This document shows positions 1,795 through 18,057 of a stretch of 33,268 nt of DNA, piece by piece (position 1 is the stretch's first letter; the number at the start of each line of letters is the position of its first letter). The translations under genes and the position numbers were made by a program. Source of the stretch: a virus; the IMG/VR virus record IMGVR_UViG_3300033149_005438, positions 1 through 33,268 of that record. One strand, 5' to 3'. The notes below the pieces were generated by a model. The model was not told the origin of the DNA, ran no database searches, and worked only from the letters and a program-made list of their open reading frames with translations.

Positions 1795-4476
1795 TTAAGC
1801 AGTAAGGTCTACTTTCACGATTAGCTGATAGTAAATTCTTCCCAACCTTGTAGTGTTGTCAAACTTAATGCGTTTCCAGCCTGTACCAGAGAACTTACTT
1901 GTAATATCCAACTCTTCACACAGGACATACGGTGTTGTACTGTCTGGCGCTGTGGCTAGTGCCTGCCCTGCATCATAACCTGCCCCATCATCACAATACA
2001 GTTTCACTCCATCTGGCGTAGTACCCAAAATAATTGACTGTGTCATGCTGTGTGAATGTGGAGGTATATCATGTGTATGGCTTATATTTATCACGTGCCC
2101 ATGCCCAATATTTACGATGTGTCGATGATCTTGCTGTATCGCGGTGTAAGGTATTGTATGTTTGTGACCTTGCCCGTCGTTTGGTTCAGTTAATTCATGT
2201 GCGTCTACGGTTATTCCTGTGGTATTAATATCAGCGCTCCCTGTTACTGTGTGGGAATGATAGCCGTCCCAGCTCGTATTCAAGGATACCTGACTAGTTG
2301 CACCTATAGTAGTTGTTATCGAGTGTTTATGCGGGTCAGTAGGCGATGCATCCTCTGTTGTACTGGGGGGCACATAATAATTATGTGAGTGTTCACTAAT
2401 TGAATGCCGGTGCGAACCCGTTCCTGAGGCAGTTGCATTCACAGAATGCGAGTGTCCTTCATCATTCACCGTATGTTCTAACGTTAAAGGTAATCCTGTT
2501 GTTGCATAGTCTGTTTCCTGGTCCGTATTGGGCCAATCATATGCATCGCGTTCAGATTCAATGAGGAATGGGTCTTCCGAGGCACCCCACACTTCAAAAG
2601 TTATTGCGTCATCAAGCGATGATTCGGAGGTAGTACCGCCACCACCTATACTGGTGGTTGCGTAACTACGGAAAGGTAGAGCTTTTGCTGTTAGTAATAC
2701 CTTCTCAATCCGAATTGTTTCACTGGGTATATAAAAATCCACTTCGATTGGATAGCCCGCGCCGATATAATCCGTGTCATTGTAAGGTAAAACATTTCTA
2801 ATTTCCGCGTATTTATCCGCAGTAATTGTGGCAGCTGCTATTTTGCCAGCTGTAACCGAGTCCGCGGCAAGATTTTCGGCTGTGATAGTTTTGCTTGCTA
2901 TCTTCACACCAGTAACAGCCCCAGCCTGCAATTTCGGTGTGGAGATTGCATCGTCGCTAATCTGTGTTTCCGTTATCTCCCCATCTAAATCCGCCGTTGG
3001 TACTTCTGCTGTCCAGGCAGTCCCCGTAGAACGGTACAGCTTATTTTCGCTTGTGAGGAATACAACGGCACCTTGCGGATAATCTGAATTGGGCAGGGAC
3101 GGCAGTGAATCTACAATTTGTACAGGTCTTAGCCTATCAGAAAACTTTCCCAGTTCAATCGCCTGTTCCTGTATTCGATCAGCATCAATAGCATCGTGCG
3201 ATATTTCACCCGTTTCGACAGGTTTCTTTGCGCCCGGCCGAGTTTCCTTCTTTAGCCACAGTTTGTGGGCACCTATCACACGGCCGGCACCAACGGCATA
3301 GGTACGCGCCTTGTTCTTGCTGATTACATGCTCAACGCTAACAATCCCATACAGTTGTGGGTCAGTAGATATATTCGGATTAATGATTTGCACTGTGTTG
3401 AAAATGTCTAGACCTGGCAGTAATGGCATATCAAGCCGGACTGTTCCAGGTAAGTCCTTCAAGTCCTGCAAAGCTGTATATCCAAAGTCAAGAGCTTCCT
3501 GCTGTGTATCTATCAGGGAGGTGTCAGCCTCTTCAAATTGGCAGTCCCTTCGCCCGTAACTATCAATCGACGTTTGGTCTAGCAAGTATGTGGGATAGTC
3601 GTCCGGCTTAAGTGTAACGCGTTCCCCTGTGGCTGCGTCTCTATACGTGACAGTTATTGCGTTCCGGACGTCCCGGTCAGTTATGTCCAGCTCCTCAGCA
3701 TAAATGTCATCAGTATTTGCCAGGTCGTAGTCTGCCGTGGCTTTTTCTCTGTCAGGCTCAATTAATGTAAGTCTGAACTGTTCAGTACCGGAGTCCCAAA
3801 GGTAACCTAGATACCACCCTATCTGCATAGCCACCTTTTGAACGGCATCCCAGGCCGATACATATTCAACATCGTACGAGGTAATGTTGAACCCAGGACT
3901 TACAGGGCAGTATAGCGGTATCGTACCGGCACCGAAATTGTCATCCAATATCTGTTGTATGACAGTCTCTGCCGGCACACCCTCAGCAGAGCCGTAGCTT
4001 GCAGGAGTAATAATATATTTGTCCATTAATTTTTTGGCCAGGTCCCGACAACTACACACAACCCTAGACTGCCCTTTATTTCGGACAGGTCGAATTACAT
4101 CGCCCAGGTAACCGTGAAATAACGTTACCCAGTCACCGCTAGTAGGTGATGCCCCCGGACTTGTAACAGCTACCTGAAAGCGCACTTCACGATTCGGCCA
4201 GAGTAGCGGAGAATACTGGCCACCAAACTGATTCCACGTGCTGTCCTGTACCTGGGGAGAAAACGACGCCGCTGTTTCGTTCAGTAGTGCAAACTCCATT
4301 CTCCGTACACGTGAATCGACACCGGATGATCCGGTGCCGACCTGCCTAACGTTTCCTGTGCTTACTCTTACGCCTCCGACAAGCCATTTTGTTACGTCTA
4401 CCCAAGTAGTGTTATCGGGACGCAAAATCTCGAGTTTGCTATGTATCTGTCTATTACGAGGAATGAGCACACTCAC
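1795..4476 (-). CDS. Tail hub/tail-tip protein fused to a histidine-rich fibre
   Basis: This 893-residue protein appears to be a fusion. Residues 1 to about 410 look like a phage tail hub (Tal or gp27-like): strand-rich, with a WVTLFHGYLGDV segment and a C-terminal part ending in VEHVISKNKARTYAVGAG. Residues about 425-560 are a low-complexity trimeric-fibre region with repeated ITAENLAADSVTAGKI-type motifs. Residues 672-812 carry ten HxH motifs, and a small C-terminal domain follows. The start is a GTG at 4476 with GGGGTGA upstream, four bases after the stop of the LamG gene. In siphoviruses the hub sits at the tail tip and often carries receptor-binding or wall-degrading modules. No catalytic hydrolase motif was seen. 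The hub call comes from order and length; the fibre call is clear from the sequence. Confidence 0.75.
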   Translation of the reverse strand: MSVLIPRNRQIHSKLEILRPDNTTWVDVTKWLVGGVRVSTGNVRQVGTGSSGVDSRVRRMEFALLNETAASFSPQVQDSTWNQFGGQYSPLLWPNREVRFQVAVTSPGASPTSGDWVTLFHGYLGDVIRPVRNKGQSRVVCSCRDLAKKLMDKYIITPASYGSAEGVPAETVIQQILDDNFGAGTIPLYCPVSPGFNITSYDVEYVSAWDAVQKVAMQIGWYLGYLWDSGTEQFRLTLIEPDREKATADYDLANTDDIYAEELDITDRDVRNAITVTYRDAATGERVTLKPDDYPTYLLDQTSIDSYGRRDCQFEEADTSLIDTQQEALDFGYTALQDLKDLPGTVRLDMPLLPGLDIFNTVQIINPNISTDPQLYGIVSVEHVISKNKARTYAVGAGRVIGAHKLWLKKETRPGAKKPVETGEISHDAIDADRIQEQAIELGKFSDRLRPVQIVDSLPSLPNSDYPQGAVVFLTSENKLYRSTGTAWTAEVPTADLDGEITETQISDDAISTPKLQAGAVTGVKIASKTITAENLAADSVTAGKIAAATITADKYAEIRNVLPYNDTDYIGAGYPIEVDFYIPSETIRIEKVLLTAKALPFRSYATTSIGGGGTTSESSLDDAITFEVWGASEDPFLIESERDAYDWPNTDQETDYATTGLPLTLEHTVNDEGHSHSVNATASGTGSHRHSISEHSHNYYVPPSTTEDASPTDPHKHSITTTIGATSQVSLNTSWDGYHSHTVTGSADINTTGITVDAHELTEPNDGQGHKHTIPYTAIQQDHRHIVNIGHGHVINISHTHDIPPHSHSMTQSIILGTTPDGVKLYCDDGAGYDAGQALATAPDSTTPYVLCEELDITSKFSGTGWKRIKFDNTTRLGRIYYQLIVKVDLTA
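2050..2454 (-). repeat. Ten HxH metal-binding motifs in the tail fibre
   Basis: Within the hub/fibre gene, HxH tripeptides start at residues 675, 689, 696, 716, 740, 771, 784, 792, 800 and 807. They are separated by short strand-like stretches rich in Thr, Ser and Ile. In known trimeric phage fibres and spikes (T4 gp37 tip, P2-type spike), HxH histidines from three chains coordinate iron on the fibre axis. Ten in one segment would give a metal ladder. Metal binding here is inferred from the motif. Confidence 0.8.
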
Positions 4477-4480
4477 TCAA

Positions 4481-7400
4481 TCACCCCATTTCTTGCTCCT
4501 TCACAACCAGTCGCAGGGTTTGTCCTTTGTTCTCCCAGCCTGCTTTTGCACCAAACTGTACCCTTGTTGCGCTTGGCGGGTCGATATAAGCCTTAACCGT
4601 GTTAGATTCATCGCCAAATTCATCGAGCCAAAAATCTTCGGCGGCATACAGAATACTTTTAAGATAGTCCTGTATTGCCTGCGCCTCTTTCTGCGTGAGA
4701 TAGCGCAGTTCCAGTTCCCAGCGTCTCAGCATCGCTGTGACATCTCGTCTCCGGACGCCACCATCTGTTACATCCTCATCAGCATAAAGTTCTGGCGTCA
4801 GTTCTTCTGCATGATGCACTGGGAGTTCCATAATCCCGAATTTAGCTATGTAACTGCGTGTATAGTGCAAATTGATCTCTTCATCAGACGGCTGATGATC
4901 CCACGTTTCAAGATAATCAAAGCGGGCGTTAGCCCATTCTCTATCCTCCAGTCTGTGAACACCTACATGAATTGTACTCGGTAACGTCCATGTTCCGCTT
5001 ACTGCTGTGTCAACAACAGAAGTTCCATCGCGATAAATTCTGAATAGCCCTGTGTTAAGATTCCATGTAATAGCAATGTAATACCATGTTTTGGGTATCC
5101 ATTCAAGAATACTGCTGTTCCCTGAATAATCTACTCCGTTTATAGAAAAAGTCCAAGAAATTCTGCCCCCCATAATTTTAACATAGAGCACATCGTTATA
5201 ATCCCTAAATGCCTCAATAATGCACCTATCATCAGCCAAGTTTTCATCCTCCAGATACATCCAAAGCCCTATACCCCCAGCTTCAGCTTTGAGTATATTT
5301 GCCGTAGGTATCTCCAGTGCATCCCCATAACTCACCTGCAACGCCTGATCCCATTTGCCGTCAACGTAGCTGTTAGCCTCCGTTGCAGGGGTAGCGGTTG
5401 CATCTATGGAGGAGAGGGGGATAACGGAAATATCATCAACATAAAATTCGGCATTGCTATCACCACGAATATAAAGATCGCCTAAATATGCATAGTTTGT
5501 CACTAAGGCGTATGTATTCCATGTTCCTCCATTTTCCGCTGCAGTAATCACTCTTGAATATTCTGTACTATTGCCCTCACGTATAGTTACAGTTCCTGAA
5601 ATTATTTTTAGTTTAGCAATCACAAGATTATATCCAGCGGGTAGCGGGTTATCTTGTATAATTCCTCCGGCGTTACATTGCACATATTGACTTGATGAAC
5701 CACTATAAGCATCCGTAGATTTAGTAACCGCGGAAACCGCCCCAGCAGTTTTCCACCCATTCGCACACCCAGCCAGCTGCTGTATCTCGCTGGCGCTCAG
5801 GGCGCGTTTGATAATGTGGATTTCGTCAATCTTGCCTGCGAAGCAATCATCCCCATCTAATACACCTATTTTGAAATCTGCAGATACACTTAAAGACCCA
5901 GTAATGTAGGAAATATCATGTGGAGACCCAAAAGCTTGCCCATTAATATAAAATTGCAAGGTGTTGTTACTACGATCTAATACAACTCCCAAGTGAGAAT
6001 ATTCACCATCTGTTACATATCCATTAAGAGAGGGACTCTCATAAAACGTATTATGACCGTTATCATCACCAAGAGTCATACGCAATTTATTAGTATTACT
6101 AATATAGAATATATATCCTCGGCCACCAAGCCTTTTACTCACCAACCTTCTAGTGCTATCACTAATCCAGTTATCCGCCGCAACCCTAGCAGTAATAGTA
6201 AAACTATCCGTCCCCATATCCAGTCCAACCTGCGCTGCATCGCTAATGTATGCATATTGATCCACGCCGTTAAGCTGGAGGGCTGTGTTAAACGGCTCAT
6301 TGTACCCTGTCGTGTATGTAGGACTACCTGCTAGGGTTAGGGTATTGCCGTTACCCGATTCGTCTGTAGTATCTTCGTTAAACCGCCAGTGCCCCACAGT
6401 CTCTGGAAAGTTAGGCTCGTTGAAGTACTCGAAGCCGCCGTTTGAGACCTTGTTGGGAACAAGAGACACTCGGTCGAAGTAGGCTATATCTCCAGCATAT
6501 CTAGAAATTAACCGTATGGCAATCTCAGTACACCCTTTAGGGACTACGAATGACGTACTGTATTTCTCCCACTCTATGTTACTCTGGTAGCCGTTTGAAC
6601 GAATATATTGGCCATGAGTAACATCTTGAATTCTAATCCCTGTTTCTACTCCAACTTCCCCACTTTTATACCAAACAGTTAACGTATAGCTTTCACCTTC
6701 AGATACAGCAAAACCCTTTGTAGCATATCCGTTTCCTGTTGTGGCTTCTACAGCAAGGCACTGTGTGTCAAATAATTGATTGCTAGTATCTTTGCTCAAA
6801 TTAGCGCCAACACCAGTCCAATAGCCAACTCCTGCATCTTCCATGTGACCATCCTGTATTAGGTTATCTGTACTCCACACACTACTAGCACTACTGCCGA
6901 GACCGCTGTTGAGACCATCTACCAGTTTACCACTACCGTCAAGTTTGAAGTAGGCTTTGAGATTCTCGGTTGCTACCACGTCCGCTGTATTGCCTACTCC
7001 TGCGTTGTAAATTTTGGCTACGTCTTCGTCGGAGAGGACTTCGTCCCAGATGCAGAAGTCGTCTATTAAAGAATTTATCGAATAACGTCTAATTTGGTCT
7101 GTTCCAAGATAAATAGTAGTGCTAGGTTCAAACGCTAACCAATTATCAACACCACTTTCGACGTTATTGTAGCTGATATTTGCATTAGTACCATCCACCA
7201 TCATGTCCAACAGTTTAGTGCCTGTAACTGGTGCGTGGTTATTATAACGCACAAGTATATGATGCCAAGTATTAGCGTTCCAACTTGATATGTTAACATA
7301 TACAAATCTGCTCACACCACCAACTCTAAATGTAGCATACAGGATACTATTTTCAGCCTTATAAATTGAAAACCATTCATCTCCGCCACTTTTTGCGTTA

Positions 7401-8179
7401 TACAGTAACCTATAATAATTTCCATCATCCCCATCCCAGAACGGCTTAATCCAGAAGCTAATCGTCCCCTGCGCCGTGTTGAAATGCTCATAGTTGCACG
7501 TCCAGCTTGTACCGCCTAAGTGCCAGGGGGTGAGAGGGCCTTGTTCGATTTGTAAACCGTCAATGTAAAAAGTGACTGCCTGAGGATTGTTTTCCGCTGT
7601 TCTTATTATAAGCTCTGTATACGCTGTACCTGAGGGAGCTACACCCGTAACATCTATACGTTGCCAGTCGCTTGTTACAGTAATAGGCTTTACAGCCTGA
7701 CTTATATAAGCGCCTAATAAATCATAGAATTGCAACAAGACAAGAAGTTCACCAGCACCTTTTATATACACACTCCCTGTATAAGTTTCCCCTTCAGATG
7801 CGACAACATAAGGGTCTATAGATACACCTTCTCTATGAACTTCCCCCGGTGTTTCAACCTGTAAACTAGCATTCCCAAATTTCGCTTCAGAAGTAGTTCT
7901 CGTCAATGTCGCTCCAAGAAGACTTTTAAATCCGCTCGTATCTGTTTCTATACTACTCTGATTCTCAGTAAGCAGATTCAGCCTACCACCAATAGGATTA
8001 CCCCTGTCAAAGGTAAACGTATCCCCTACTGTGCTGCCACCCTTGCCTATGATAGGCAGGGCTTCGTTGAGTTTGCCTGCTGTGTATGCCATGCCGGGAG
8101 TAAAGGTGGGACTTACAGTAGCCCCACCGGGTCTTTTGCCTGTTAAACTTCCGTCGAATTTGAACTCAGCAGTTTCCAC
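4481..8179 (-). CDS. Giant LamG/carbohydrate-binding tail protein
   Basis: This 1232-residue protein alternates two kinds of beta-sandwich module. CBM4/9-like jelly rolls lie at about residues 67-215, 438-575 and 806-922. LamG/concanavalin-like domains lie at about 230-395, 595-800 and 930-1107. The LamG modules carry typical markers such as TISFWIKPF and KIDEIHIIKRALSASEI. The last 120 residues (WELELRYLTQKEAQAIQDYL and onward) are different and resemble the C-terminal part of phage distal-tail proteins. It sits between tape measure and hub, where Dit normally lies, so it may be an evolved Dit that displays glycan-binding modules. The start is a GTG at 8179, 12 bases after the previous stop, with a weak GGTGAT upstream. 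Host-wall polysaccharide binding is inferred from the folds. Confidence 0.78.
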   Translation of the reverse strand: METAEFKFDGSLTGKRPGGATVSPTFTPGMAYTAGKLNEALPIIGKGGSTVGDTFTFDRGNPIGGRLNLLTENQSSIETDTSGFKSLLGATLTRTTSEAKFGNASLQVETPGEVHREGVSIDPYVVASEGETYTGSVYIKGAGELLVLLQFYDLLGAYISQAVKPITVTSDWQRIDVTGVAPSGTAYTELIIRTAENNPQAVTFYIDGLQIEQGPLTPWHLGGTSWTCNYEHFNTAQGTISFWIKPFWDGDDGNYYRLLYNAKSGGDEWFSIYKAENSILYATFRVGGVSRFVYVNISSWNANTWHHILVRYNNHAPVTGTKLLDMMVDGTNANISYNNVESGVDNWLAFEPSTTIYLGTDQIRRYSINSLIDDFCIWDEVLSDEDVAKIYNAGVGNTADVVATENLKAYFKLDGSGKLVDGLNSGLGSSASSVWSTDNLIQDGHMEDAGVGYWTGVGANLSKDTSNQLFDTQCLAVEATTGNGYATKGFAVSEGESYTLTVWYKSGEVGVETGIRIQDVTHGQYIRSNGYQSNIEWEKYSTSFVVPKGCTEIAIRLISRYAGDIAYFDRVSLVPNKVSNGGFEYFNEPNFPETVGHWRFNEDTTDESGNGNTLTLAGSPTYTTGYNEPFNTALQLNGVDQYAYISDAAQVGLDMGTDSFTITARVAADNWISDSTRRLVSKRLGGRGYIFYISNTNKLRMTLGDDNGHNTFYESPSLNGYVTDGEYSHLGVVLDRSNNTLQFYINGQAFGSPHDISYITGSLSVSADFKIGVLDGDDCFAGKIDEIHIIKRALSASEIQQLAGCANGWKTAGAVSAVTKSTDAYSGSSSQYVQCNAGGIIQDNPLPAGYNLVIAKLKIISGTVTIREGNSTEYSRVITAAENGGTWNTYALVTNYAYLGDLYIRGDSNAEFYVDDISVIPLSSIDATATPATEANSYVDGKWDQALQVSYGDALEIPTANILKAEAGGIGLWMYLEDENLADDRCIIEAFRDYNDVLYVKIMGGRISWTFSINGVDYSGNSSILEWIPKTWYYIAITWNLNTGLFRIYRDGTSVVDTAVSGTWTLPSTIHVGVHRLEDREWANARFDYLETWDHQPSDEEINLHYTRSYIAKFGIMELPVHHAEELTPELYADEDVTDGGVRRRDVTAMLRRWELELRYLTQKEAQAIQDYLKSILYAAEDFWLDEFGDESNTVKAYIDPPSATRVQFGAKAGWENKGQTLRLVVKEQEMG

Positions 8180-8193
8180 CTACTATCACCGTC

Positions 8194-8391
8194 CTAAGCT
8201 GTAGCCGTATCCTCTACCACAACTTCCAGGCTCTTTAGCCCGTCAACTCTTGCCTGAAGCTCTGCCTTCTTGTCTTCCAGTGCCTGAATAGCATACATGT
8301 TTGTCGTGTCAATCGAACTAATTGCAGCGTTAACCTCACTGATTCTCTTCTCCAGCATTTGAATCTCACTCAAGACTTCTCTGACTAACAT
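8194..8391 (-). CDS. Small coiled-coil protein after tape measure
   Basis: This 65-residue protein has clear heptad character (REVLSEIQMLEKRISEVNAA, then ALEDKKAELQARVDGLKSLE) with a short break in the middle, suggesting a helical hairpin. TAGGAGG lies seven bases before the ATG at 8391. It lies between the tape measure and the putative distal-tail gene, ten bases after the tape-measure stop. A minor tail or assembly role is possible, but I do not recognise the family. Confidence 0.6.
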   Translation of the reverse strand: MLVREVLSEIQMLEKRISEVNAAISSIDTTNMYAIQALEDKKAELQARVDGLKSLEVVVEDTATA

Positions 8392-8402
8392 ATTATCGCC
8401 TC

Positions 8403-11400
8403 CTAAGCAGTAGTAAGACCGTACTCGGTTAAGCCTACGTTTTGCTTTATCTTGTCTACAGCCTCTTCGATCTTACCTTCGAAGTCATCCGTGCCATAAA
8501 CGTCCCCGTTAAAGTTAATTATTACCGTTGTCTCTTTTGCTCCCGAAGTCATTACATCGGTTTGATCTACAAATAATTCTGCGCTGTATCTAGGCTGTGC
8601 TACCTGAAAGCGCCGAAGTGCTACCTTGAAACCTGAAGGAATATTGCGTAAAGCCCCGGAAACTTTATCCATCCCATCAGCCGCGTCCTCCGAAGCAAAA
8701 GTCAGACTCTTCAGTGCCTCATAGAAAGGTTTCGCTGTCTCAACTATCTGCTCAAAGGCACTCTCAATACCTGCTTGTTCTTCAGCCGTTATCTTAAAAT
8801 CCTCTACAGCAAAGGTGATAATATCAGACAGGTTTTCGAGTAACGGCCTGACCGTCTCTGAGGCCATAAAGGCTGTTATTAAAGCTCTCTGAGTTTGCTC
8901 CCTTAACGTTCTCGCAAAACCACTGACAAAATCGTCGTAGGTTTCAGCTGAGAATGCGGACGCCAAGCTCCGCGCTATATCACTTATCGTTGTTCCGAGA
9001 ACCTCTTTAATCTTCTGTAATGTATCCCCAAGTTTTTTCTTCAGCTCTTCAATCTGAGGACCCAGGTTAGCCTGAGCCACAGCTCTACCACCGAACGCTC
9101 CGAGACCGGCTCCTAGGAGCGCACCAATTGGACCACCTAAGAAGAATCCAAGCAGTCCTCCTGCTAATCCACCACCCACAGTGGCTACATCAATAGCTTT
9201 CTGTTTTCTGATTAAACTATCTAGGTTCTTGTCCCACTCTCTAAAGTTTTTGAACATTTCGCCGAGCTTAGGGAACATCTCCACTCCACGAGCCGTCATA
9301 CCACGAAATTCGGCGGCATAATCACCGCTCAGTAGCCTACCTACCGATGTAGCAATGGCATTCACGACAGCCCCGATGGCGGATTGTAGGTCCTCAAATG
9401 CAAGCATTACGAACGATATTATATCTCCAAAGCCGCGCGCTATTGCGTTTGAGGACTGCCTTAGCGTATCAGCTAAAGTGTAGACAAAACTCTTTGCATG
9501 TTTAGCCCAATCTTCAAATTTCATCGCTTTGATTTGATCATTTAGCTCCTTGAACCTACCAGGTAACCCTCTTATACTTTCCGTCAACTGTTTGAAAAAG
9601 CCTGTTGCTTCTTCAACCGCCTCTGTGTTATCTTCTTGCTTTTGAGTGCCGGTTTCTGCAGCTTGCCCCATACTATCAAAAGCCTCCAAAATACCGGTGA
9701 ACCTTGCCTTCATGTCCTCCCAGAATGCACGTATGTTGTCTGCCAGTCCTGCCTGAGTTTTAAGGTAATATTTGCCTCCTTCTTTCTTCAGCAAATCCCC
9801 AGCCGCTTCCCCGAGTGTGAGATATAGATACCTATATTCCTCTGCGCTTATTTCTCTCCACTTCGCTGGGAACAGTCTATCCACCAACCCAAGCAGTAGA
9901 TCACCCAACATCGTGAAAAAGCCAACTATTGCGTCTTTGATTCCGGCGAACATTGTGTTCATCGTCCGGCTAATATCCTGAATCCAGGTTGAAGCAGTCC
10001 TAAGTTGTGAGTCAATCTCAGGATTACCGGTAGTAACTGTCGGCACCATACCTGCCTGGAAGCCCGGTACTCCTTGCTCCCTAAACCACGCCAGAACACC
10101 GGGCCATCCCTTCTGTACTGCCTTTGCCGGCACAACAGCCTCACCAGGAGCTAAGAGAGCAAGAAATTGATCCGGTCCTGAAGTACCAGGAAGAATTGCG
10201 CCCTCATGGTGCTTCTCTGCACCGGTTAGCCAATTAACAAATTTCTGAAATGCGCCCTGTACCCCACCAACGGCATCTTTTATCCAGTCCGGGATGATGT
10301 CAAGTATGAACGTGCTGAGATTTTCCCAGTTGAAAATTTCCTGTATGCCTTCCATGATGCTGTTGGCTATTGTATTGCCTAGCTCTATGAATTTGCGCGT
10401 TATTCCAGCTACCGTCTCAACCCCTATGTCGCCAAGAAGAGCCGTAAAATCCCATGCAAGCAGGAAGCCTTCCTTTATAATCGATGCGATATTTACACCT
10501 ACTTCCACCAGACCGGGAATTTTACCCCTTCCTTCTGCTTCGGTAAGAACACCGAACGCTTCCCAAATCCCAATCCCTTCCTGCTTCGCCATTTCACGAA
10601 TTTCCTGTCTACGCTCTTGTATCCATTCACGCAAACCTCTCAGTCTTCCAACTACCCCGGGGGTTACCTCTTCGACCGTTTCAACTACTATTCGCCAGGT
10701 TGTTTCAGCAGTTTTGTCAAGCCATGGAATAACGTTTTCTTTTACCCAATTAAGCGCCTCGTCTTTCCTATCCACTATCCATCTCCATACTGTTTCGAAG
10801 CCTTCTTTTAACTTTTCGAAAGAGGGGTCCTTGACAAAATCGAGCGCCGGGCCTGTCAACCATTCCCAGGCATTTCCTGCCTGTTTGGCAACCCATTGCC
10901 ATACAGTCCTGGCACTTTCCTGTAATTTCGGCCATGCAGTATCCCGAATCCAAGTCCAAGCTGGTCCTGACAACCAGTCCCATGCGTTACCTGCTTGTTT
11001 AGCTACCCAGTTCCATACAGTCTTGGCACTTTCTTGCAGTTTGGGCCATGCTGTATCCTTAACCCACGTCCATGCCGGACCTGATAACCATGCCCAGGCA
11101 TTTCCGGCTTGCTTTGCAGTCCATTGCCATGCCGCACTAAAGCTCTCTTTTATCTTTGGCCACGCAACATCCTTTATCCAGTCCCAAGCGGGTCCGGATA
11201 GCCAACTCCACGCATTACCCGCTTGCTTTGCCACCCATCGCCAAGCTGCTGAAAAACTTTCTTTGAGTACAGGCCAAGCTGTATCTTTTATCCAGGACCA
11301 GGCTGGACCACTTAACCAATCCCATGCGTTACCGAGTTGCTTAGCAGTCCACTTCCAAACAACCTTGATGTCCTCTGTTACCGTGTCCCAGATAGGCTCT

Positions 11401-12458
11401 ATCGTCCGCCAGACAGCAAGCGTTTTCTCCTGTATGCCACCCCAATTTTCAGTCCAGGCTGTATAAAGCAACGTCGCTCCTGCGGCAATAGCTCCTATAC
11501 CCAGTACGATTGGACTAGTTATTATCCCAAACACACCGCCCAGCAGGACAATTCCCTTTACCACGGCGCTTGCCGCCGTGACAAGCAAACCAAATGCCAC
11601 TACGGCACCCAAGACTGCCGATGTTATTGCACCTATGCGGACAATATTGTCCTTTGTCTTGTCGTCAAGGTCTCCGAACCACCTGACTAGGTCCCTCACA
11701 TTTTTGAGCACTTCCTCTGCCGCGGGAAGCAGACGTACGCCGTAATCCTCCGCTATATTCCTGATGTCGCCACTAAGACCTTTCAACAGGTTTTGGAAGC
11801 TGTTAGCTGTATCACGTGCATCGCCGTGCAAATCAGCCGTCCTGTCCAGGATATAGTTATACCGAAGTGTCACCTTCTCAGCTTCAGTCATCTCTCTTAC
11901 ACTCTTGCCAATACCTTCAGCTAAAGCATAAGCCTGGAGCTGAGCCTCAGTTAACACGATGCCAAACCGTCTGAGTGGTTCGGTTTCGCCTACAAGTCCA
12001 GCTCTCAATGCGGCGAATGCCTCTTCATCCGCTACGTTGAAGAAGCTGCCCATATCCACAGCTAACTGGGCTATAGTTTTTGACATTTCGGCTGCTTGCT
12101 TGGTGCTACCTACCATAGGTTTGAGCATTGCACCGGCTGTACCTGCGAATTGTCGTAGCTGGTACCTTGACCGCCCGACCTGTTTACTCAGCGTGTTCGC
12201 CCAGCTGTCTATATCATCTGCCATGCTACCAAAGGTTTTGTTGATAACGTTACTGAGTTCTTGGGCATCAGAGGCAACCTTGATCATGTATATCCCAGCA
12301 CCCGATATACCCGCCAGAGCAATGGCAGCTTTTTTGGAAACTTCTCTTGCCTTTTTGGCAAAATTATCCAGCTGCTTTGAAGCCTTTTGCAACTCGCGAT
12401 TGAAACCTACGGAATTAGCTGACAGTAACACATTCAATTTTGCCACTGTGAAAGCCAT
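8403..12458 (-). CDS. Tail tape measure protein
   Basis: At 1351 residues this is the longest gene here. Residues 10-250 match the conserved N-terminal tape-measure region (PhageMin_Tail type), including MVGSTKQAAEMSKTIAQLAVD and GLVGETEPLRRFGIVL. Hydrophobic helices follow at about 272-335. Next comes a Trp-rich tandem repeat (about 367-560), a long helical region, and a small Gly-rich hydrophobic segment (GGGLAGGLLGFFLGGPIGAL) in the C-terminal third. Tape-measure proteins set tail length and help DNA cross the membrane. By the usual rule of about 0.15 nm per residue this predicts a tail near 200 nm. The ATG at 12458 has AAGGAGG eight bases upstream and starts just after the frameshifted chaperone frame ends. 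The upstream in-frame TTG at 12461 is less likely. Confidence 0.95.
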   Translation of the reverse strand: MAFTVAKLNVLLSANSVGFNRELQKASKQLDNFAKKAREVSKKAAIALAGISGAGIYMIKVASDAQELSNVINKTFGSMADDIDSWANTLSKQVGRSRYQLRQFAGTAGAMLKPMVGSTKQAAEMSKTIAQLAVDMGSFFNVADEEAFAALRAGLVGETEPLRRFGIVLTEAQLQAYALAEGIGKSVREMTEAEKVTLRYNYILDRTADLHGDARDTANSFQNLLKGLSGDIRNIAEDYGVRLLPAAEEVLKNVRDLVRWFGDLDDKTKDNIVRIGAITSAVLGAVVAFGLLVTAASAVVKGIVLLGGVFGIITSPIVLGIGAIAAGATLLYTAWTENWGGIQEKTLAVWRTIEPIWDTVTEDIKVVWKWTAKQLGNAWDWLSGPAWSWIKDTAWPVLKESFSAAWRWVAKQAGNAWSWLSGPAWDWIKDVAWPKIKESFSAAWQWTAKQAGNAWAWLSGPAWTWVKDTAWPKLQESAKTVWNWVAKQAGNAWDWLSGPAWTWIRDTAWPKLQESARTVWQWVAKQAGNAWEWLTGPALDFVKDPSFEKLKEGFETVWRWIVDRKDEALNWVKENVIPWLDKTAETTWRIVVETVEEVTPGVVGRLRGLREWIQERRQEIREMAKQEGIGIWEAFGVLTEAEGRGKIPGLVEVGVNIASIIKEGFLLAWDFTALLGDIGVETVAGITRKFIELGNTIANSIMEGIQEIFNWENLSTFILDIIPDWIKDAVGGVQGAFQKFVNWLTGAEKHHEGAILPGTSGPDQFLALLAPGEAVVPAKAVQKGWPGVLAWFREQGVPGFQAGMVPTVTTGNPEIDSQLRTASTWIQDISRTMNTMFAGIKDAIVGFFTMLGDLLLGLVDRLFPAKWREISAEEYRYLYLTLGEAAGDLLKKEGGKYYLKTQAGLADNIRAFWEDMKARFTGILEAFDSMGQAAETGTQKQEDNTEAVEEATGFFKQLTESIRGLPGRFKELNDQIKAMKFEDWAKHAKSFVYTLADTLRQSSNAIARGFGDIISFVMLAFEDLQSAIGAVVNAIATSVGRLLSGDYAAEFRGMTARGVEMFPKLGEMFKNFREWDKNLDSLIRKQKAIDVATVGGGLAGGLLGFFLGGPIGALLGAGLGAFGGRAVAQANLGPQIEELKKKLGDTLQKIKEVLGTTISDIARSLASAFSAETYDDFVSGFARTLREQTQRALITAFMASETVRPLLENLSDIITFAVEDFKITAEEQAGIESAFEQIVETAKPFYEALKSLTFASEDAADGMDKVSGALRNIPSGFKVALRRFQVAQPRYSAELFVDQTDVMTSGAKETTVIINFNGDVYGTDDFEGKIEEAVDKIKQNVGLTEYGLTTA
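10784..11362 (-). repeat. Tandem 38-residue Trp-rich repeats in tape measure
   Basis: Five copies of a 114-base unit encode variants of AKQAGNAWDWLSGPAWTWIK followed by DxAWPKLQES and a linker, with a decayed sixth copy. The WLSGP-encoding segments recur at about 10855, 10969, 11083, 11197 and 11311, exactly 114 bases apart. Trp pairs spaced W-x-W recur three times per unit. Third-codon positions vary more than the protein, so the repeat is maintained at the protein level. Confidence 0.93.
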
Positions 12459-12463
12459 CAAGA

Positions 12464-14507: not shown

Positions 14508-14924
14508 TTATCTCATCACCTCTCGTAATCGTGCCGCTATCCTACGAGGCATTTCTGGAGCGGCTGCTTTGGCCGGGTCCTCAAGGTATTTCCACTTCCC
14601 AACCTTTGCCCACGTTTTGTAACGTTTGCCACTTGGGCTCTTTCCTCCAGTTTTACCTGCTCGAGGATTTTCGTGTACGTACACGGCGTAAGGTGCCGCA
14701 GGTCCACCGTAGCCAATTTCCACAATAATACTTTTGGCAGTGTACTTGGGTTGCTCAATGTATGCTGTGCCTCTTAGAGTACCCGTATCCACAGGGCACT
14801 GTCGCATACTATCGGTCCTGATTAGCTGGCCTTCGGTATATAGAGCTTTGCCGAGCTCGGCCCGAGCTTTGCCGCCTAACTGCTTAAGCAGCCTTTTTAA
14901 TTCCTCTGTCCCTTTGATTTTCAT
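14508..14924 (-). CDS. HK97 gp10-like tail completion protein
   Basis: The protein contains the family hallmark RQCPVDTGTLRGTAYIE and the closing YAVYVHENPRAGKTGG region of HK97 gp10-like proteins (Pfam HK97-gp10_like), a head-tail joining component. At 138 residues it has the usual length. Two in-frame ATGs are possible. The one at 14924 has GGAG six bases upstream and is preferred; the one at 14936 would add four residues. Immediately upstream lies a 57-base gap holding a short duplicate of the end of the head-closure gene. This suggests the gene once followed that gene directly. It overlaps almost directly with the tail terminator gene downstream. Confidence 0.88.
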   Translation of the reverse strand: MKIKGTEELKRLLKQLGGKARAELGKALYTEGQLIRTDSMRQCPVDTGTLRGTAYIEQPKYTAKSIIVEIGYGGPAAPYAVYVHENPRAGKTGGKSPSGKRYKTWAKVGKWKYLEDPAKAAAPEMPRRIAARLREVMR

Positions 14925-14944
14925 TGATATCTCCATACACTAGA

Positions 14945-14958
14945 TGTTCACCACCTTG
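14945..14958 (-). repeat. Direct repeat flanking the 14994-15527 gene (left copy)
   Basis: The 14-base sequence TGTTCACCACCTTG occurs here and again at 15529-15542, 584 bases apart, with partial similarity continuing for several more bases. Read on the minus strand this copy would encode LHRKVVNI and a stop. The right copy is the true end (HHKVVNT, stop) of the head-closure gene. This copy looks like a leftover gene end. Confidence 0.85.
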
Positions 14959-14993
14959 CGGTGTAACAACCTGTTAAGCCAACGAAACTATCC

Positions 14994-15527
14994 CTAACCC
15001 TCAACTACAGAAAACCTTATCAGTATTGTGCTACTCGCAGAGCCGTCATTCGTAATTGATATGACGTAATCGGTACTTGGTTTGAGACGGGTCGGCTTCT
15101 GAACTCCAAGCACATCACCACCCACTATTTTTTGCCCTACAGTTCCGCCTACATAAAATTCGTCAATCTGGGTGCCGCCGGAAACCCCTGACGGATTAGA
15201 ATATGCATTCACAGACGACGTGTTCGAGCTGGTGCGATTACAATTGATTAGCGGGACAGCCACTGACCCATCCGTCACTGTAGGGTCCTCATACATCTTT
15301 AACGTCATCTTATCCCCGTCGGTCACAATCGATTCAAACATAAAGCAAACCGCCGCAGCCCCCGTTTTTATTTGTAGATGTGCAATCGCCTCGGCATCAA
15401 TCGTATATTTCACATATCCATGATATACATTACCGTCGAAACAGCGTTTAGTTAACAAATCCAACAAAACGAAGGCATTTTGTGTCCCGTCATAACCGTT
15501 CGCAGTCTTTATAGTGGCAGTACTCAT
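14994..15527 (-). CDS. Putative virion surface/decoration protein
   Basis: This 177-residue protein is strand-rich, with an N-terminal hydrophobic half and a conserved-looking end (RLKPSTDYVISITNDGSAS, then a final strand). The Asn/Ser-rich middle (NRTSSNTSSVNAYSNPSG) is typical of phage capsid-associated beta-sandwich proteins found among head genes. Its ATG at 15527 overlaps the previous stop as ATGA. It is flanked by a 14-base direct repeat, which suggests it was added between the head-closure and gp10-like genes. A decoration or head-associated role is inferred only from composition and context. Confidence 0.55.
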   Translation of the reverse strand: MSTATIKTANGYDGTQNAFVLLDLLTKRCFDGNVYHGYVKYTIDAEAIAHLQIKTGAAAVCFMFESIVTDGDKMTLKMYEDPTVTDGSVAVPLINCNRTSSNTSSVNAYSNPSGVSGGTQIDEFYVGGTVGQKIVGGDVLGVQKPTRLKPSTDYVISITNDGSASSTILIRFSVVEG

Positions 15528-15844
15528 GTGTTCACCACCTTGTGATGTATATTCCCAGTTTCATCCGGGTACTTTTCGATCGAAATTATCACAGGCGAGG
15601 TTCCATCCGGTAACGTGATCCGATCCCTAACATCGATACCAACATCGCCGTTCAGGTAAACCTGTGCTGAACTAACAACCTCTCGCCCTTCTCTGTCCAG
15701 GACCTTCCTGGTACGGTACCGAATTAAGGCAGGGTATTCAACCGCGTCGCCATAATCCGGTTCGCCGTATAGGTTCTGCCCTGTGTAGGGTTCTATCGTG
15801 ACTGTACTACTAAACCACTCCAAAAAATCCTGTTCCAAGGGCAT
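15524..15844 (-). CDS. Head closure (head-tail joining) protein
   Basis: This 106-residue protein is a small beta-barrel type. It has the features of SPP1 gp16/minor-capsid-like head closure proteins: an N-terminal helix, VTIEPYTGQNLYGEPDYGDA, then GDVGIDVRDRITLPDGTSPV and a last strand before a short tail. These proteins bind below the connector ring and plug the head after packaging. The ATG at 15844 overlaps the connector gene's stop as TAATG, and its own end overlaps the next start as ATGA. The assignment rests on gene order plus the strand pattern. Confidence 0.75.
   Translation of the reverse strand: MPLEQDFLEWFSSTVTIEPYTGQNLYGEPDYGDAVEYPALIRYRTRKVLDREGREVVSSAQVYLNGDVGIDVRDRITLPDGTSPVIISIEKYPDETGNIHHKVVNT
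15529..15542 (-). repeat. Direct repeat flanking the 14994-15527 gene (right copy)
   Basis: This is the functional copy of the 14-base repeat. It forms the 3-prime end of the head-closure gene and supplies the AAGGTGGTGA ribosome-binding site for the next gene, which starts at 15527. The left copy at 14945-14958 similarly sits ahead of the gp10-like gene. Confidence 0.85.
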
Positions 15845-16230
15845 TAGTCATCATCCTCACCTGTAAGTGTGGAATCGTTCTCCATCATCCCAACCTCAAA
15901 CCTAGCATCCTCTTCAGGCTCTTCCCAGCTCGGGTAAACAGAGGTTGTCATGGCTAGCCTCTCCAAGTCATTCGCCAAGGACATATACATTTGAGCTTTT
16001 TGGCTTAGAGATATTCGCAAATCGCCTACAGATTTGTCTGCCTGACGGGAGAACTTGGCGGCGATAACCTTTGCGGCCCGAGCCGCTGCCAGGTATACCG
16101 TACCCCATTCGTCGAGTAGGTATGTGATCTCTTCATCTGATAGCAATTGGTCTGTTTGGTCAGTATCACCTATAAGCAACCTAACCTTATCCCTGTCGTT
16201 CGCCGACGGATCGTCGTACGTCCAGGTCAT
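15844..16230 (-). CDS. Head-tail connector/adaptor protein
   Basis: About 128 residues, starting MTWTYDDPSANDRDKVRLLI, then GDTDQTDQLLSDEEITYLLD and a long helix. This is the recognisable pattern of gp6/gp15-type head-tail adaptors, which form a ring below the portal. The ATG at 16230 is preferred. An upstream in-frame ATG at 16239 directly abuts the AAAGGAGG ribosome-binding site, whereas the one at 16230 is nine bases away. The gene overlaps the end of the small coiled-coil gene upstream by 44 bases. The C-terminus is very acidic (TGEDDD). Confidence 0.85.
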   Translation of the reverse strand: MTWTYDDPSANDRDKVRLLIGDTDQTDQLLSDEEITYLLDEWGTVYLAAARAAKVIAAKFSRQADKSVGDLRISLSQKAQMYMSLANDLERLAMTTSVYPSWEEPEEDARFEVGMMENDSTLTGEDDD

Positions 16231-16372
16231 CACCGCCATCCTCCTTTAACAAAGATAACCAATACTCACAATCCTGTATTGCTCCGTTATAGGCATTGAG
16301 GTTAGCAACCAGCTGGTCGCGTTCTGCCTTGAGCTGGGCTAACCTCTGCTCCACCATTTCACGGGTAATCAA
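16187..16372 (-). CDS. Small coiled-coil head-region protein
   Basis: This 61-residue protein begins MITREMVEQRLAQLKAERDQ and continues with NAYNGAIQDCEYWLSLLK. Small phage proteins of this two-helix type are common near head genes and their function is unknown. The start is a TTG at 16372 with AAGGAAGTGA upstream; the next ATG (16357) is less well placed. Its last third overlaps the connector gene in another frame, so the final 15 residues (DVRRSVGERQG and before) are probably under weak selection. Confidence 0.6.
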   Translation of the reverse strand: MITREMVEQRLAQLKAERDQLVANLNAYNGAIQDCEYWLSLLKEDGGDDLDVRRSVGERQG

Positions 16373-16386
16373 CTTCAGTCACTTCC

Positions 16387-16767
16387 TTATGAGGAGGTAA
16401 TCGTCTCCCACGCAGAACCGGTGTAAACTTTCAGCTTATGCTCTGTGTCGTCATAATAGATGTCACCCTCTGATGGAGTACCAGGAGCTGAACCTGGTGT
16501 TAGATTGATGAATGTTCCAATCCCTATGCTTGCCGAGAAAGTTGCAGCCCCTGTCACAGACAACGTTCCTGCTATGGAGGTATTCCCGGAAGCCGCCGCA
16601 ACAGTAAGTTTGTCAGTGGCTACCGAGAAATCCCCGGTACAATTTAGCTTGCCAGTTATGTTGATTTTCCCGTCGGTGTCGTTGTCAATCGTCTCGCCGT
16701 TGTCCATAGTGATCTTTCCAGTTGTTATTGCACCGACAAGTGCCCTCCCTTTAGTCACTCTGTTCAT
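16387..16767 (-). CDS. Fibre-like head appendage protein
   Basis: This 126-residue protein is built of short repeating beta segments, such as GKINITGKLNCTGDFSVATD and GTLSVTGAATFSASIGIG. It ends in a tail-fibre-like closing module (GDIYYDDTEHKLKVYTGSAW). Such sequences form trimeric beta-helical fibres. AGAGGTGAACTAG precedes the ATG at 16767. Because it sits among head genes, between the capsid and connector genes and not with tail genes, I read it as a head fibre or whisker. A stray tail-fibre fragment is the alternative. Confidence 0.65.
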   Translation of the reverse strand: MNRVTKGRALVGAITTGKITMDNGETIDNDTDGKINITGKLNCTGDFSVATDKLTVAAASGNTSIAGTLSVTGAATFSASIGIGTFINLTPGSAPGTPSEGDIYYDDTEHKLKVYTGSAWETITSS

Positions 16768-16785
16768 CTAGTTCACCTCTCAAAC

Positions 16786-17097
16786 TTAGGTTTTTCCTAT
16801 CCCTACCTGCTCATTCAGTTTGTCCTCCCGTTCGAGGTTTTTAAGTTCTTCCTCAGGAGTCAAGTCCTTGTGCTTAGTGTTCCCGTGGTGGGTGCGCTCT
16901 GCGAGACCAATAAATTCAGCCCCGCAAATAGCGCACTTGTAAGTTTCCGCATTCTTTGGCACCTCACCAAAGAAATTCAACCGAACCAGTTTTTCATCAT
17001 TCCTGGCTCCCACTAGTTCAGTTATTTGGCCTCTATCCAACCTCACACCGCCATACGTGAAAGGAATCTTAGCGAAGTACCTTTTCTTCCTGGTCAT
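16786..17097 (-). CDS. Small C2H2 zinc-finger-like head-region protein
   Basis: This 103-residue protein has an N-terminal strand-rich half (KRYFAKIPFTYGGVRLDRGQ) and a C-terminal metal-site pattern, C55-x2-C58-x12-H71-x4-H76. That matches classical C2H2 finger spacing, and a charged tail follows. It starts at the ATG at 17097, four bases after the capsid gene's stop, with only a weak GGCGGTGG as a binding site, so coupling to capsid translation is likely. Zinc binding is inferred from spacing. It may be a structural clip or head-assembly protein; I do not recognise the family with certainty. Confidence 0.62.
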   Translation of the reverse strand: MTRKKRYFAKIPFTYGGVRLDRGQITELVGARNDEKLVRLNFFGEVPKNAETYKCAICGAEFIGLAERTHHGNTKHKDLTPEEELKNLEREDKLNEQVGIGKT

Positions 17098-17100
17098 TCG

Positions 17101-18057
17101 TTATGCCACCGCCCCTGACATGAATAAGCCCGCATTTGAGCCTGTGATTTTCTGATCAAAGTAGGTGTTACCCTCGATGATGTCAACCTCCCGCTCTTCA
17201 TCACGCATGCGCTTGATGTACTGAAGGGCGTTCGGAACCACTTGCCACACAAAGGTATACCCAGCGGCAGGGGTAAGCAACGACGGTCTATCCGGGACAT
17301 AAATCATCAAGGCATTCTTGCCCCAAATCCGGCTATAGGTTACTGAAGCCTCAGCAGTACCTTCCGCAGATGTGGTGTAAATCGACCGACCGATCAAGAC
17401 TTTATCAAACTCAGTTAACGTCCTAAACAGATCGATGGTCACTTGGCCTACCTGGGTATACTTAATAAGGTCTACCAGATCCGGGTGCCATTTAAGCTGA
17501 AGCCATACTTCCTTGCCCATTACCAATACATTCGGTTCACGACCGATCAGCCCTTCAACCGTGTCCTTGTAACTATCGATGTCAGTTAGCGGGCTGGAGT
17601 TAGCGTAATCACTCCACTGGGTGAAGTCAACACCACCAACTTTATCTGTGCCCCAAATGTTGGTTGTGAAGAAGTCTGTTGCAAATGCAACTTCCCGGCG
17701 CATCTGCAACTTGTCAGCCACCCACTCGGTGGCATCTCGATCGAGGTTGAACGGGGCATCCGCATTCTTGCGAAGCTCGTCAGAAATTTCCTTCCGAATC
17801 GAGTACCGATCGCAGAAGTACTTCGCGGATGTAGTTACCTTCCAACCTCCTCCAGCAGACTTTGTTCCAGGAGCACGAAGTTTGGCTTCATCTCTAAACC
17901 AGTGTGATTGATCATATTGCGGAATTATGTCCGACTGCTTCTGAACCGGAACAATCGGAAATATCTGGTCCGCAATATATTCAGGATTTTTGTAGGCGAT
18001 AGATATATTTGTTAGCAACTGATCAACGTGCAAAGTGCTAGGTAAAGGATTTGGCAT
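17101..18057 (-). CDS. Major capsid protein, HK97 fold
   Basis: This 318-residue protein matches a known family of phage major capsid proteins. An N-terminal ADQIFPIVPVQKQSDIIPQY block is followed by WFRDEAKLRAPGTKSAGGGW, a long spine-helix region with IRKEISDELRKNADAPFNLD, and a late domain with GKNALMIYVPDRP. It forms the icosahedral head shell together with the scaffold and decoration proteins upstream. I start it at the ATG at 18057, nine bases after AAGGAGG. The ATG at 18063 sits too close to that site. It lies directly downstream of the decoration gene, in standard capsid-cassette order. Confidence 0.93.
   Translation of the reverse strand: MPNPLPSTLHVDQLLTNISIAYKNPEYIADQIFPIVPVQKQSDIIPQYDQSHWFRDEAKLRAPGTKSAGGGWKVTTSAKYFCDRYSIRKEISDELRKNADAPFNLDRDATEWVADKLQMRREVAFATDFFTTNIWGTDKVGGVDFTQWSDYANSSPLTDIDSYKDTVEGLIGREPNVLVMGKEVWLQLKWHPDLVDLIKYTQVGQVTIDLFRTLTEFDKVLIGRSIYTTSAEGTAEASVTYSRIWGKNALMIYVPDRPSLLTPAAGYTFVWQVVPNALQYIKRMRDEEREVDIIEGNTYFDQKITGSNAGLFMSGAVA

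Follow-up and report, generated by a model that had tools for sequence, protein, structure and literature searches.

The gene and its C-terminal core

The virus record IMGVR_UViG_3300033149_005438 from IMG/VR was analysed over its entire length of 33,268 bases, which we refer to as the window. Its minus strand, which carries the genes and modules described below for the window, presents a siphophage-like gene order of terminase, portal, head genes, tape measure, a 65-aa open reading frame (ORF), a 1232-aa protein, a hub-like protein and a GH108 endolysin (512-1054). The 1232-aa protein is encoded by an intact ORF with a GTG start (4481..8179) and is bracketed by the tape measure protein (8403..12461; phrog_1535, E 2e-38) and the hub/Tal-like protein (1795..4476). 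This gene probably specifies the distal tail protein (Dit) of the phage, in the form of a minimal one-domain Dit at the C-terminus preceded by an array of ~1,110 residues which, in our preferred reading, grew by nested insertion.

The C-terminal 123 residues (1110-1232; 4481..4852) were aligned with 11 relatives and modelled with AlphaFold2 (AF2), yielding a pLDDT of 77 and a pTM of 0.68. Comparison of this model with known structures using VIA returned a list of tail-tube-like proteins headed by a Milano baseplate protein (Z 10.8), the lambda tail-tip chain 8iyk_E (Z 10.2, over 102 of 109 residues), which we take to be gpM, and an 80alpha protein (Z 9.9), followed by further distal-tail chains from SPP1 (Dit, Z 8.3), TP901-1 (8.2), a T5-like phage (7.7) and p2 (7.3); where the title of an entry does not give the phage, its name is our own presumption. 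The core thus displays the belt/tail-tube fold of the N-terminal domain of Dit, with the lambda tip, 80alpha and SPP1 matches spanning 102-112 residues. A search of a viral structure library with the same model recovered mostly unnamed small tail proteins. In profile searches, phrog_1194 and Pfam DUF6711 match relatives of the core with E-values of 8e-5, 2e-5, 3e-4, 0.0017 and 0.0054; these small tail proteins resemble the core in size and occupy the same slot between tape measure and hub in another phage (L084), but they are bare, and the core itself matches them only weakly (E 0.029 and 0.043, the latter with 14.6 bits against a cut-off of 27).

The slot between the tape measure and the hub/Tal protein is the position of Dit, and the ORF list and domain searches of the window revealed no other Dit-sized candidate between the tape measure and the endolysin. 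A scan with the tape measure recovered a sister phage (L082), whose tape measure is 78% identical across 1032 aa and whose hub, which matches the phrog_1887 tail protein (E 2e-20), is 49% identical to that of the window. The gene following the tape measure in this phage encodes a bare 116-aa protein that is 38% identical to residues 1117-1228 (E 1e-12). A scan with the hub pair extended the comparison to 14 viral contigs, L082 among them, and one genome contig. The protein in the Dit slot is bare in 11 of these 14 viral contigs (111-128 aa) and larger in three. In ten of the former, a homologue of ~113-128 aa after the tape measure is detected by a two-sequence profile at E-values of 4e-7 or below (L091, among these ten, is itself part of that profile), and L102 has a 111-aa slot protein matching phrog_1194 (E 2e-5). 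The larger slot proteins measure 503 aa (L101), 274 aa (L103) and 274 aa (L104); since the Dit profile A5 finds their N-terminal part (E 1.6e-10 in L101, 4e-8 in L104 and, weakly, 0.0045 in L103), their extra sequence is placed inside Dit. These three share the gene slot and Dit homology with the window protein, and L101 also carries a LamG and a CBM (carbohydrate-binding module), but their cargo follows the FDxxLYSxxGL loop within Dit, whereas the array of the window protein is N-terminal; none of the 14 viral contigs has a slot protein resembling this array.

Taken together, the tail-tube fold and the gene slot identify the C-terminal domain as Dit. Both the tail-type C-terminal domain and the Dit position between tape measure and hub, as proposed in a first-pass annotation of the window, are therefore borne out by the L082 homologue, the relatives in the slot, the AF2 model, its VIA matches and the gene slot, which is the same in L082. 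That annotation had also proposed that both flanks of the protein be modelled as a Dit core: the C-terminus does model as a core of the ring-forming type, whereas the N-terminus starts straight into the first LamG domain and lies outside the core.

Searches for relatives of the whole 1232-aa protein found none in a whole-protein pattern scan of viral contigs, nor in 50 of the 80 records collected by terminase similarity. Similarly, tblastn against 50,697 phage records gave no match outside the first CBM, which was matched in two records, both of Arthrobacter phage Molivia, and searches at looser thresholds (E up to 1) added weak partial matches only. Profile A5 had no match in 400 Chloroflexota genomes, a search run with no positive control, so that its empty result carries no weight. 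The hub relative on the only genome contig recovered, 4.6 kb from a Chloroflexota metagenome-assembled genome, is not preceded by a Dit homologue; the gene in that place is presumably recombinase-like.

The N-terminal array

The first-pass annotation had described three CBM4/9-like and three LamG-like domains in alternation, and in Pfam searches with fragments the main bodies of the modules indeed follow that order. With the whole protein, Pfam reports three Laminin_G_3 stretches (E 4e-41), and all three LamG fragments exceed the curated cut-off of this family (PF13385, 27.6 bits): residues 222-405 (LamG1; E 2e-13, 51.4 bits), 575-808 (LamG2; E 4e-20, 72.9 bits) and 925-1112 (LamG3; E 7e-10, 39.7 bits). 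We delimit the bodies of LamG1 and LamG3 as residues 223-404 (6968..7513) and 927-1109 (4853..5401), and the contiguous, canonical LamG2 as residues 591-803 (5771..6409). CBM_4_9 (PF02018, curated cut-off 25.9 bits) does not reach the E 1 threshold with the whole protein and is seen on fragments only. There, CBM2 (residues 436-578; 6446..6874) lies over the cut-off with 27.8 bits, CBM1 (residues 65-222; 7514..7987) under it with 20.6 bits (E 6e-4), and the main part of the probable CBM3 (residues 804-926; 5402..5770) well under it with 13.3 bits (E 0.11). CBM1 is further recognized by the NCBIfam model GTA_spike_fiber, whose cut-off is 36 bits and which gives 53.3 bits with the whole protein, its best stretch being residues 81-216. 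The AF2 model of CBM1 is a confident jelly roll (pLDDT ~90 across most of residues 81-210) with VIA Z-scores of 13-16 to CBM22, CBM4, CBM16 and CBM29 structures and to CBM-like modules of phage tailspikes, and of about 15-16 for CBM families. A sequence search of the PDB gave weak matches to LamG2 and CBM2 only. Thus, the three LamG domains are sure and two of the CBMs are sure or nearly so, while the third CBM is probable.

The N-terminal receptor-binding domain of clostridial neurotoxins (Toxin_R_bind_N, PF07953) also scored with the whole protein (28.7 bits). On the LamG2 fragment it reached 23.5 bits against a cut-off of 23.8, where Laminin_G_3 reaches 72.9; we therefore read this score as reflecting a shared lectin/jelly-roll fold in a phage tail gene, rather than a specific membership.

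The regular order of the modules had been attributed to duplication of a CBM-LamG pair, up to three copies, and the aligned modules speak against this. Their mutual similarity is uneven: CBM1 resembles CBM2 (Z 9.9) and LamG1 resembles LamG3 (Z 8.9), whereas neither LamG2 nor CBM3 resembles any other module (LamG1-LamG2 Z -0.3, LamG2-LamG3 1.5, CBM1-CBM3 0.6, CBM2-CBM3 -0.7). Moreover, for CBM1 a CBM of another phage (L105; Z 26) scores far above CBM2, and for LamG2 a cellular LamG found in L118 (Z 17) scores above the neighbouring modules. Such unevenness would not be expected from a single pair duplicated three times, a history that is thus unlikely. At the DNA level, the gene holds only 7 two-copy repeat families of 12-28 nucleotides, arguing against a recent duplication.

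Profile matches along the protein instead suggest a nested arrangement at three levels, to which we give an even chance: LamG1 would be split by CBM1, LamG3 by CBM2 and CBM3, and CBM3 in turn by LamG2. A cellular LamG profile covers LamG2 over positions 2-192 of 192, but LamG1 only from position 46 and LamG3 only from position 35. When a profile of the first LamG strand (strand A) is run along the whole protein, the own strand of LamG2 (at 590) ranks first and residues 403-426 rank second, with a score reached by 7/500 shuffled proteins. Joining residues 403-434 to the body of LamG3 adds 7.2 bits, a gain reached by 1/150 other segments and 1/100 shuffles, and joining residues 1-50 to the body of LamG1 adds 3.5 bits (2/150 segments, 8/100 shuffles); in the positive control, the own strand of LamG2 adds 28.6 bits (0/150, 0/100). 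Residues 1-62 are also similar to residues 925-960 ahead of the LamG3 body (2/1000 shuffles reach the score) and less so to residues 403-434 (45/1000). For these similarities we relied on shuffles; a control with random segments of the window was dropped as invalid because its segments overlapped the bodies under comparison and so gave self-matches, 109/300 reaching the score. Finally, residues 576-590 joined across LamG2 to residues 804-930 score 19.7 bits with CBM_4_9 over profile positions 2-42, which is under the cut-off, compared with 13.7 bits for the body alone and no match with a shuffled piece. The displaced pieces would accordingly comprise an N-terminal piece of LamG1 before the CBM1 insertion (residues 1-62; 7994..8179), an orphan first LamG strand belonging to LamG3 (residues 405-434; 6878..6967) and an N-terminal piece of CBM3 with an NGGFE motif (residues 579-590; 6410..6445).

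Alternative readings

Against this nested arrangement stands the simpler possibility that the fusion to Dit is as we describe, and the modules are beads on a string, CBM-LamG three times over, whose LamG domains have lost their first strands. The main bodies do alternate regularly, AF2 places no confident strand in residues 1-67, and database LamG domains that score with the first strand missing are common. Simple tandem modules, however, leave unexplained why the second-best strand-A motif of the whole protein should lie 500 residues before LamG3, why the segment before CBM1 should resemble that before the LamG3 body, why CBM3 should regain the N-terminal part of its profile match when joined across LamG2, and why the similar pairs should skip LamG2 and CBM3. 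We therefore hold this alternative to be a serious contender, albeit a somewhat less probable one than nesting. The evidence for nesting has weaknesses of its own. The LamG1 join is the weaker one, given its 8/100 shuffles, and extending the piece to residues 1-62 lowers the gain to 1.3 bits (20/150 segments, 19/100 shuffles); in the CBM3 join, 16.0 bits were reached with one unrelated segment, as against 19.7 with the proposed piece; the same join found nothing with a phage-CBM profile, an uninformative outcome; and the tests reach only about p 0.01 or are less strong. In addition, the AF2 model made for this question, covering residues 1-409, left residues 1-67 below a pLDDT of 50 and the LamG1 body near 50, and it is because these decisive N-terminal residues were left unmodelled that we rate nesting no higher. 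On the profile evidence, the regular alternation of CBM and LamG would nevertheless be better read as the outer trace of nested insertions than as tandem pairs.

The identity and the role of the protein can likewise be read in other ways. The Dit model is of medium confidence, the best Z-scores to SPP1 and p2 are near the tool background of 7-8, and the model also matches many tube, terminator and Hcp proteins, so that the fold alone is insufficient to establish a Dit and gene position carries that part of the argument. As the tail-tube fold is common to major tail, terminator and baseplate proteins, and many such chains appear in the fold list, the protein might be a peripheral accessory, such as a second ring or the anchor of a side fibre, rather than Dit itself. 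This is improbable given that the region between the tape measure and the endolysin offers no second Dit candidate and that an undecorated homologue occupies the slot next to the tape measure in the sister phage and in 11/14 relatives. It is less improbable, though still unlikely, that the modules of the decorated Dit serve as spacers or protein-binding collars, since LamG and CBM folds also function in protein binding and architecture, and glycan binding by this array is something we infer. The CBM1 model, on the other hand, has matches among CBM families that bind sugars and among CBM-like tailspike modules, and CBMs of Dits from other phages, for which a role in surface-glycan contacts has been proposed, have in some cases been tested on cells and bind the host (PMC7291167, PMC9863714).

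Related tails and known Dits

Several observations concern the neighbouring genes and related tails. The 65-aa coiled-coil-like ORF between the tape measure and Dit (8194-8391), whose stop is separated by 14 bases from the start of the Dit gene, is absent from L082, where Dit directly follows the tape measure. The tape measure gene contains a 114-nucleotide repeat in 2.5 copies (10846-11130) encoding Trp-rich 38-aa repeats of the WxWLSGPAWTWIKDTAWPKL type, and similar repeats are present in L082. HxH-type histidine motifs are abundant in the C-terminal half of the hub protein (1795-4476), whereas the L082 hub ends in a beta-helix-like repeat region matching the tail spike family phrog_2234 (E 8.5e-5); the differing C-termini point to an exchange of the hub tip between these phages. 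In L082, the tail and lysis genes are followed (14896-17428) by genes that we take to be ParA-like, replication-like and XRE-type repressor-like, which suggests a plasmid-like prophage. Open frames of 287-288 aa in L110, L112 and L113 (near 4506-5393) look as if a CBM had been placed in a loop of a Dit, the Dit profile giving only E 0.14 on L113. In L093 (9992-13621), a LamG (E 1.1e-19) lies at the C-terminus of the hub with a CBM-like similarity ahead of it, and Dit is bare (113 aa); hence, it seems that adhesive modules can shift from one of these two proteins to the other. Finally, L105 (4941-7376), L106, L107, L108 and L109 have open frames of 812-867 aa for phage tail proteins that begin with a CBM similar to CBM1, followed by repeated WNG-type repeats, which we guess to be propeller-like.

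As described in the literature, known evolved Dits have one or two CBMs placed in loops of their galectin domain (PMC7291167), and the 659-residue Dit of OE33PA has a CBM between the belt and galectin domains (PMC8540738). Like these proteins of lactobacillus, lactococcal, streptococcal and Bacillus cereus-group siphophages, the window protein is a probable distal-tail ring protein with modules of carbohydrate-binding type. It differs from them in having no galectin domain and in bearing five or six modules of two folds in an array that is N-terminal, the gene ending with the 123-residue core. The suggestion of the first-pass annotation that this is an evolved Dit with an unusually long adhesive array thus stands as regards the Dit core, the slot and the long array, but not as regards the galectin-loop architecture; since the galectin domain is missing, we regard the protein as a decorated one-domain Dit presumably working like an evolved Dit. 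A minimal Dit is put at 120-140 residues (PMC8540738), and the Dit of lambda also has no galectin domain (PMC9437275). Close in plan, too, is gp24 of Alishewanella phage LSH1, a gpM-like Dit with one distinct N-terminal decoration (PMC13243795): lambda gpM, LSH1 gp24 and the window core are all one-domain Dits of the tail-tube fold. The LSH1 decoration, however, is a single domain with a galactoside-binding-like fold, as opposed to ~1,110 residues of LamG and CBM modules. The array in front of the window Dit is thus exceptionally long, and in the collection of papers searched, none used all four of the words LamG, tail, phage and Dit.

By analogy with its homologues, the C-terminal ~120 residues, a minimal one-domain Dit of the lambda-gpM kind, would form a ring between the tail tube and the hub, probably of six copies, from whose periphery the arrays would splay outward. 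The modules could then add many weak, reversible and multivalent contacts with surface glycans, which might tether the virion to the cell surface, or orient it there, until the hub has found its receptor and commits. The figure of 36 adhesin modules per virion put forward in the first-pass annotation would require the ring to be one hexamer and every one of the six modules to be genuine.

Since related phages have the ring protein in bare form, this gene clearly exemplifies how a structural ring can be made adhesive, with adhesion itself presumed from the modules. The related tails provide a natural before/after series, in which the ring protein is bare, carries a loop insertion or bears a long N-terminal array, so that the effect of a decorated Dit ring on adsorption, and the way in which arrays of this kind grow, can be addressed directly. 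If the array is nested, counts of alternating domain matches in phage tail proteins may mistake nesting for tandem repeats, and nesting would constitute a mode of growth for phage adhesins distinct from tandem duplication, here built on a one-domain Dit ring.

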